From Nitrospira tepida (GTDB taxonomy: Bacteria > Nitrospirota > Nitrospiria > Nitrospirales > Nitrospiraceae), in assembly GCF_947241125.1 (NCBI RefSeq), contig NZ_OX365700.1, positions 496,001 to 560,000 of the forward strand: DNA of 64,000 nucleotides, written 5' to 3'. The translations under genes and the position numbers were made by a program. Below, one piece after another: positions 5,619 through 16,973 of the stretch. Position 1 is the stretch's first letter; each line of letters opens with the position of its first letter. Below the pieces are notes generated by a model. The model worked only from the letters and a program-made list of their open reading frames with translations, did no database searches and was not told where the DNA came from.

Positions 5619-5741
5619 GGGCCACGAGTGTAGGAGACCGAATCGAACCCGGTCAAGTGGGAGCCGGCGCCTTCAATTTACTGGAGAAATGCCACCGGCG
5701 TCATGCCATCGGTCGGCGGCTTCTGAGCGGTTGCACAGGCA

Positions 5742-7756: not shown

Positions 7757-7786
7757 GGGGCCGGGAGCCTGACGGCTCCCGGCCCC
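7757..7786 (-). terminator. Terminator hairpin after nxrB copy 1
   Basis: Perfect 13-bp stem (GGGGCCGGGAGCC and its complement) with a 4-nt loop TGAC, 25 bp beyond the nxrB stop. On the minus strand it is followed by the pyrimidine-rich CGTTTCTTCCTCC. An almost identical hairpin lies after copy 2. Confidence 0.75.
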
Positions 7787-7810: not shown

Positions 7811-9100
7811 TTACAGCCAGGTGACCCGTTCCGCCGGTCGGACGTAGATCGGCTCCTCGACCTGGATCCGCGCCACTTCCTTCCCTGACTTGTTGAAGCC
7901 CAGCACGGTGTCGTTGTACATCTCGAACCGCTTCCCGTGGATCTGGGTCTCAAACACCTTCGGGCCCGGAATCACGTCGTACCGGAAGATGATCTGCTGG
8001 CTGGCCCGCCACAGTTGCAGCACCGCCAACAGCTCCCGGCTCGGCACCAGGTACTTCTCGATCGCATTGTCCACGCCCGGCCCGAACATCTGTCGGGCAT
8101 AGCCCCGCGGGCTCCACCGCGGCGGGATGTAGAACCCGTTCGGCTCCGTTCCCCACTGCGGGTACAGGGGCAGCGCCACCTGCTCCACCCGAATGGCGAA
8201 GTACAGCGGGTGCCACCGGTCCTCGGCCCACAGCCCGTCCTCGCCGATCCGCACCAGCGACTGCATCCGGATCTTCCCGACGCAGGCCGCCATACAGCGC
8301 GTTTCCATCGGCTCGCCGCCCGTCAAGGGGTCCTTCCCCTCGATCCGCGGATAGCAGGCAATGCACTTCTCCGAGACCCGGGTCGTGCCTCGGTACATCG
8401 GCTTCTTGAACGGGCACTGCTCGACACACTTCTTGTACCCGCGGCAGCGGTTCTGGTCGATCAGCACGATGCCGTCTTCCGGCCGCTTGTAGATGGCCTT
8501 CCGGGGACAGGCCGCGAGGCAGCCCGGGTACGTGCAGTGGTTGCAGATCCGCTGGAGATAGAAGAAGAACGTCTCATGCTCCGGCAGACTGCTGCCCGTC
8601 ATCTTCCAGGGTTCGTCCCGGGAGAAGCCGGTCTTGTCGATGCCTTCCACGAGGGCGCGCATCGAGGTAGCCGTGTCCTCGTAGATGTTGACGAACCGCC
8701 ACTCCTGGTCCGTGGGGATGTAGCCGATCGCCGCCTGGCCGACCTTGGCCCCGGCGTCGAAGATGGTCATCCCCTCGAACACCCCGTAGGGGGCATGGTG
8801 CTTGCGGCCGACCCGCACGTTCCACACCTGCCCGCCCGGGTTCACTTGCTCGATCAACTGCGTGATCTTCACGTCGTAGAACTGGGGATACCCGCCGTAG
8901 GGCTTGGTCTCCACGTTGTTCCACCACATGTACTCCTGGCCCTTCGAGAAGAGCCAGGTGGACTTGTCGGCCATCGAACAGGTCTGGCACGCCAAGCACC
9001 GGTTGATGTTGAACACGAAGGCGAACTGCCACTTCGGATGCCGCTCCTCGTAGGGATAGAGCATCTTGCGGCCCAGTTGCCAGTTATAGACTTCAGGCAT
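7811..9100 (-). CDS. nxrB: Nitrite oxidoreductase beta subunit (NxrB), copy 1
   Basis: 429 aa iron-sulfur electron-transfer subunit of NXR. Fourteen cysteines in four groups can be seen: C35/C38/C41; C186/C189/C194/C198; C219/C225/C229; and C246/C249/C269/C273. This is the layout of NarH/DMSO-reductase-type beta subunits with four clusters. No signal peptide is present, so it is expected to be exported together with the Tat-bearing NxrA. It starts 103 bp downstream of nxrA with a strong site (GGAGG, 6 bp from ATG). It differs from copy 2 by one residue (Lys166 here, Arg there) and a few silent changes. No nxrC or chaperone gene lies nearby. Confidence 0.97.
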   Translation of the reverse strand: MPEVYNWQLGRKMLYPYEERHPKWQFAFVFNINRCLACQTCSMADKSTWLFSKGQEYMWWNNVETKPYGGYPQFYDVKITQLIEQVNPGGQVWNVRVGRKHHAPYGVFEGMTIFDAGAKVGQAAIGYIPTDQEWRFVNIYEDTATSMRALVEGIDKTGFSRDEPWKMTGSSLPEHETFFFYLQRICNHCTYPGCLAACPRKAIYKRPEDGIVLIDQNRCRGYKKCVEQCPFKKPMYRGTTRVSEKCIACYPRIEGKDPLTGGEPMETRCMAACVGKIRMQSLVRIGEDGLWAEDRWHPLYFAIRVEQVALPLYPQWGTEPNGFYIPPRWSPRGYARQMFGPGVDNAIEKYLVPSRELLAVLQLWRASQQIIFRYDVIPGPKVFETQIHGKRFEMYNDTVLGFNKSGKEVARIQVEEPIYVRPAERVTWL

Positions 9101-16836: not shown

Positions 16837-16866
16837 GGGGCCGGGAGCCTGGCGGCTCCCGGCCCC
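16837..16866 (-). terminator. Distal terminator hairpin after nxrB copy 2
   Basis: The same 13-bp stem as at 7757-7786, with loop TGGC, followed on the minus strand by TTCTTTCACCC. It lies over 100 bp beyond the nxrB2 stop instead of 25 bp because of an insertion between gene and hairpin. Confidence 0.75.
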
Positions 16867-16890
16867 TCCGCATCTGTGCCCAGCTTGGGA

Positions 16891-16907
16891 TTACAGCCAG
16901 GTCACCC
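16891..16907 (-). pseudogene. Vestigial 3' end of an earlier nxrB
   Basis: On the minus strand this stretch reads GTGACCTGGCTGTAA, i.e. Val-Thr-Trp-Leu-stop. Those are exactly the last codons of NxrB, at the same distance from the distal terminator as in copy 1. The intact nxrB2 stop lies 83 bp upstream. It looks like the tail of the former gene, left when a full-length copy replaced it. Confidence 0.65.
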
Positions 16908-16923
16908 TCCGAACTTGCTGAAG

Positions 16924-16953
16924 CCCGGTGCGCTCATGATGACGCGCACCGGG
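16924..16953 (-). terminator. Proximal hairpin after nxrB copy 2
   Basis: Perfect 10-bp stem CCCGGTGCGC/GCGCACCGGG with a 10-nt loop, 21 bp beyond the nxrB2 stop. No U-tract follows, so it may stabilise the 3' end rather than terminate. It is absent from copy 1. Confidence 0.55.
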
Positions 16954-16973
16954 AGACACACCACCGGGCCGTC

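Follow-up and report, generated by a model that had tools for sequence, protein, structure and literature searches.

Behind the intact nxrB2 gene of Nitrospira tepida, the last codons of nxrB are written a second time, which raises the question of how a single gene came to have two ends. The locus lies in a window of 64,000 nt (G000:C1:496001-560000), the whole stretch of DNA analyzed here, which forms part of a 4.73 Mb genome assembled as a single contig (G000). This genome contains three nxrB genes, designated nxrB1, nxrB2, and nxrB3 (Table 1). Two tandem nxrAB pairs are separated by genes encoding a sigma-54 response regulator and a histidine kinase; the Fer4 domains of nxrB and the molybdopterin domains of nxrA are present as expected. 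The nxrB2 protein is 97-99% identical to those encoded by the nxrB genes of most related genomes.

Table 1. Features of the nxrB2 end and of the sites with which it was compared. Positions are those of the window unless preceded by G000:C1.
Feature	Position	Strand	Basis or detail
nxrB2, intact, 429 aa; real end GTC ACC TGG TTG TAA	16974..18263	minus	ORF, Fer4 domains
nxrB2 stop codon TAA	16976-16974	minus	
5-nt spacer 3' of the nxrB2 stop	16969..16973	minus	
Worn dispersed palindromic element, CCCGGTGCGC..loop..GCGCACCGGG, arms conserved	16907..16968	plus	model R2
Ghost nxrB 3' end, GGGTGACCTGGCTGTAA, V T W L stop	16891..16907	minus	paralogue match and profile score
Ghost codons GTG ACC TGG CTG TAA	16905-16891	minus	
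G+C-rich hairpin, then T-rich stretch; read as the terminator of the old nxrB2 tail	16837..16866	minus	common to nxrB1 and nxrB3
nxrB1	7811-9100	minus	
nxrB1 last codons, GGGTCACCTGGCTGTAA	7811..7827	minus	comparison
Terminator hairpin past nxrB1	7757..7786	minus	comparison
nxrB3	G000:C1:3961904-3963190	minus	
Example places of the palindromic element	G000:C1 4309700-4310800, 630300-631600, 4129000-4130500		loci L229-L248

A second nxrB end

A preliminary description of the locus had reported a further Val-Thr-Trp-Leu-stop past nxrB2. This was confirmed: on the minus strand the two stop codons lie 83 bp apart, and the interval from the nxrB2 stop to the relic (hereafter, the ghost) is only 66 nt. 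The ghost matches the end of nxrB3 at 17 of 17 positions and that of nxrB1 at 16 of 17. Its first two codons read GTG ACC, as in nxrB3, and the present end of nxrB2 has GTC ACC, as in nxrB1. In a three-way alignment, the ends of nxrB1 and nxrB3 fall on the ghost, not on the real end of nxrB2. The nxrB1-like spacing and hairpin noted beyond the ghost also held up on alignment, as the 55 nt past it are 89% identical to the sequence past nxrB1 (E=6e-13) and the same long, G+C-rich terminator stem is common to both tails.

Alignment with the nxrB1 tail, which had been suggested as a check on coincidence, did not point to a chance match, and neither did a position-specific profile. The latter was built from the last 24 nt of nxrB plus the stop codon, and 141 distinct nxrB tails were searched with it, each to a distance of at most 800 nt downstream. 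Six forward ghosts were recovered (scores 22.7, 22.0, 21.2, 12.4, 4.0 for the window, and -2.2), all above the controls: the next forward match scored -14.8, and the best reverse-complement match -9.3. Between the nxrB2 stop and the ghost stands the hairpin of a palindromic element. No T-run was found directly 3' of this hairpin before the ghost, GCGCACCGGG being followed by CTTCAGCAAG; thus, it is not an intrinsic terminator.

Ghosts in related genomes

Ghosts occur in seven genomes of six genera, comprising the window and six related genomes (L130/G108, L144/G090, L080/G188, L062/G011, L011/G030, and L260/G198), and the relatives are mostly metagenome bins. In G090, G108, G188, and G011, the nxrB stop is followed by a terminator-like hairpin (hpA), the palindromic element, and the ghost, in that order. 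The same order is seen in G198:C40, where the element is shortened; in G030, hpA is kept, the ghost is decayed, and little of the element is left. The ghost stop codon has been lost in both G011 (GGTAC) and G030 (TGTCA). The window lacks hpA, which the relatives carry right after the nxrB stop. With this hairpin missing and a ghost of 17 nt, the window copy appears older or more worn.

Searching 175 genomes of the family with a pattern for the element-ghost junction refound G090, G108, and G188 and uncovered the new case G198:C40, and the reversed control pattern gave 0 matches in the same 175 genomes. The strict junction is sporadic (4/175). Its boundary is identical in the four genomes G090, G108, G188, and G198, and this shared boundary favours a junction that originated once and was then spread or inherited; it may mean one ancient event and descent, not repeated conversion. 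The preliminary description had also reasoned that ghosts in relatives with no nxrB duplication would speak against a replaced gene. No such refutation emerged, as nxrB is duplicated in G000, G011, G030, G188, and G198. From each of G090 and G108, a single nxrB end was recovered; both are metagenome bins, in which near-identical copies readily collapse into one, so that their copy number is uncertain.

A probable exchange between nxrB copies and its alternatives

The arrangement is probably the outcome of a gene-conversion-type exchange, in which an nxrB together with a tail ending in the palindromic repeat overwrote the resident nxrB except for its last codons, which survive as the ghost. Windowed identity among the three nxr loci is 93-100% within nxrB for all pairs, as compared with 63-89% between mid-nxrA of nxr3 and the other two, and similarity drops at the nxrB stop codon. 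Such a pattern, with its sharp end, is what gene conversion predicts. In genus g19, ghost-free orthologous loci run from nxrB straight into the sequence found elsewhere after the ghost, which argues that the ghost is the old gene end of its locus. Before-and-after pairs of loci can be aligned: the ghost and tail of G198:C40 agree at 111/134 positions with the tail that immediately follows nxrB in G030:C155 (100 shuffles: mean 87, maximum 99), and G030:C2 agrees with G018:C20 at 118/138 (shuffles: mean 88, maximum 102). A third pair, G090 and G015, is marginal at 103/138 (shuffle maximum 101). In G198, moreover, the nxrB end and hpA are the same at two nxr loci, beyond which each locus continues into a tail of its own.

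The preliminary description had interpreted the site as a conversion or recombination junction that left the old tail in place. Homogenization up to the stop codon and the g19 orthologues support the exchange itself; the picture of the site has shifted in that its hairpin is a dispersed repeat and the same scar occurs in six other genomes. The locus works like a gene-conversion scar between paralogues: the paralogues reside in the same genome, their identity is a patchwork with a sharp end, and the relic continues into the recipient flank, as seen with the g19 orthologues and, at the window itself, with paralogues only (the window locus was compared with these alone, and its genus is represented in the set by this one genome). 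The comparison is worded in this way because a search of G000 for a tail that could have served as donor of the nxrB2 end found none: neither of the two other nxrB tails carries the element. A donor tail in the same genome is not indispensable, since the donor may be lost or foreign.

We infer the following order of steps. The resident nxrB2 would have ended in GTG ACC TGG CTG TAA with its own terminator, until homologous recombination put another nxrB copy and its 3' tail in place of the gene body. If the incoming tail ended in a copy of the dispersed palindromic repeat, and if the exchanged tract stopped, on its right-hand side, where this repeat meets the old last codons, the last 17 nt of the former nxrB would have stayed. 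The element-ghost junction itself may have arisen once, from an element that either resided in the final ~24 nt of an nxrB copy or inserted there, and may then have spread between nxr loci with the ghost as a second short stretch of homology; alternatively, the element may mark the breakpoint for some other reason. The window would later have lost hpA and part of the ghost. A more far-reaching and tentative idea, which we regard as possible but doubtful, is that four parts travel together as one module, namely the 3' end of nxrB, the terminator hairpin, the palindromic element, and the spare gene end. Homologous recombination would carry this module from one nxr locus to another and from one Nitrospira genus to another, the spare end would provide built-in landing homology, and the repeat would hitch-hike on the concerted evolution of a gene central to nitrification.

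A direct repeat of the gene end flanks a short element, and in four genomes the end of that element meets the ghost at one and the same position. This might also be expected if the element had integrated close to the 3' end of nxrB and thereby duplicated the final ~17-24 nt of the gene, in the manner of a target site or attachment site, with no exchange between nxrB copies. Such an insertion is unlikely to be the explanation. Simple insertion adds no terminator-like hairpin, yet hpA too lies between stop and element in G090, G108, G188, G198, and G011; the nxrB end and hpA are common to the two G198 loci; and the repeats enclose no integrase or recombinase gene of their own, the 66-nt interval being too small for an integrase gene.

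There is only a slender chance that two tandem nxrB genes once stood here and that the second was deleted except for its last codons. The tandem nxrAB copies of the window are 9 kb apart, and recombination is documented to have removed an nxrAB copy in an earlier report (PMC6606698). However, homologous collapse yields one fused gene with no relic, so that non-homologous deletions with nearly the same endpoint in several genera would be needed to leave one; the ghost-free g19 orthologues, in which one nxrB is followed by the post-ghost tail, also weigh against this scenario. Very improbable, finally, is a conserved regulatory 3' region in which the second gene end is kept for an RNA stem across the stop codon, acting in termination or transcript stability: the last codons (CTGGC) do pair with sequence ~9 nt past the stop in 38/138 nxrB tails, versus ~10% of shuffles, and, judging from the sequence, a wobble form of this stem could be retained in the ghost, but the stop codon losses and sporadic occurrence described above run counter to it.

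Exchange between nxrB copies, the reading preferred here, has a close counterpart in the recombination of nxrB paralogues in a growing culture of N. moscoviensis, where one nxrAB copy was lost (PMC6606698). In both cases near-identical nxrB copies exchange, and the organisms belong to the same group. In that culture, however, an nxrAB copy was deleted and two nxrB genes were fused, and the part of the report available to us describes neither a leftover gene end nor a palindromic repeat. The locus also resembles the concerted evolution, or gene conversion, of bacterial duplicates in that gene bodies are homogenized and flanks remain locus-specific; unlike ordinary conversion of duplicates, the tract here carries a 3' tail, leaves a relic of the recipient gene end, and recurs in several genera. 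A literature search for nxrB gene conversion in Nitrospira found nothing direct.

The scars indicate that nxrB copies overwrite one another, tail included; thus, a tree or a copy count based on nxrB can blend loci with different histories. The scars are countable traces of overwriting events, and following them brought to light a dispersed family of palindromic repeats associated with tRNA ends and ribosome-binding sites.

The dispersed palindromic element

The hairpin between nxrB2 and the ghost had been called unique. Its exact sequence is single-copy in G000, yet it is a member of a family of ~100 copies. A search with the exact hairpin matched the window locus and G011 only, and an element specific to this pair was briefly considered; the idea was dropped when a looser DNA search revealed a wide family. 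With the cassette as query, the element part was located at a great number of sites across Nitrospira-type genomes, frequently in clusters.

A covariance model, R2, was constructed from 18 element copies, none of them from nxrB, with the structure supplied; its E-values are rough. Within the 64 kb window, the element at nxrB2 is the best R2 match (20.9 bits; rough E=1.3e-5), and over the whole of G000 this copy reaches E=9.3e-4, again a rough value. Because this site is the best match within the window to a model free of nxrB copies, the hairpin is a worn member of the family and not a unique structure. In G000, R2 matches at least 109 places at E<=1 (150/3116 candidates scored), the nxrB2 copy among them. 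A second, weaker match in the window lies at 5646-5699 on the plus strand (14.1 bits, E=0.0076).

The element is intergenic, palindromic, and ~60-80 nt long. Many copies adjoin the CCA end of tRNA genes of various specificities, or that of tmRNA. In G000, it lies behind several tRNAs and also forms tandem arrays (unit length ~95-100 bp), which often immediately precede a ribosome-binding site. Reading the hairpin as an integron attC site was considered and dropped, since the attC core motifs do not fit.

In being short, palindromic, intergenic, multi-copy, and often tandem, the element resembles the REP and BIME repeats associated with RAYT (Y1) transposases. It differs from them in that many copies sit at tRNA CCA ends or just upstream of ribosome-binding sites, and in that no significant copy was found around the eight Y1 (PF01797) matches of G000, where the best element match has E=0.076. 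The element is REP-like in build but is not classed as REP: a link to Y1/RAYT was looked for around those eight matches and not found, and recognition of a foot tetranucleotide by the transposase, a further mark of REP elements, is a matter for biochemistry. The literature yielded nothing direct describing a palindromic repeat family in Nitrospira.

Two further observations concern the surroundings of element copies. At L237 and L240-L243, the palindromic element is contained in a larger dispersed repeat of up to ~430 bp with an inverted repeat. At L175, L181, and L184, element copies adjoin degenerate 3' fragments of tRNA-Ser that resemble tRNA ghosts.
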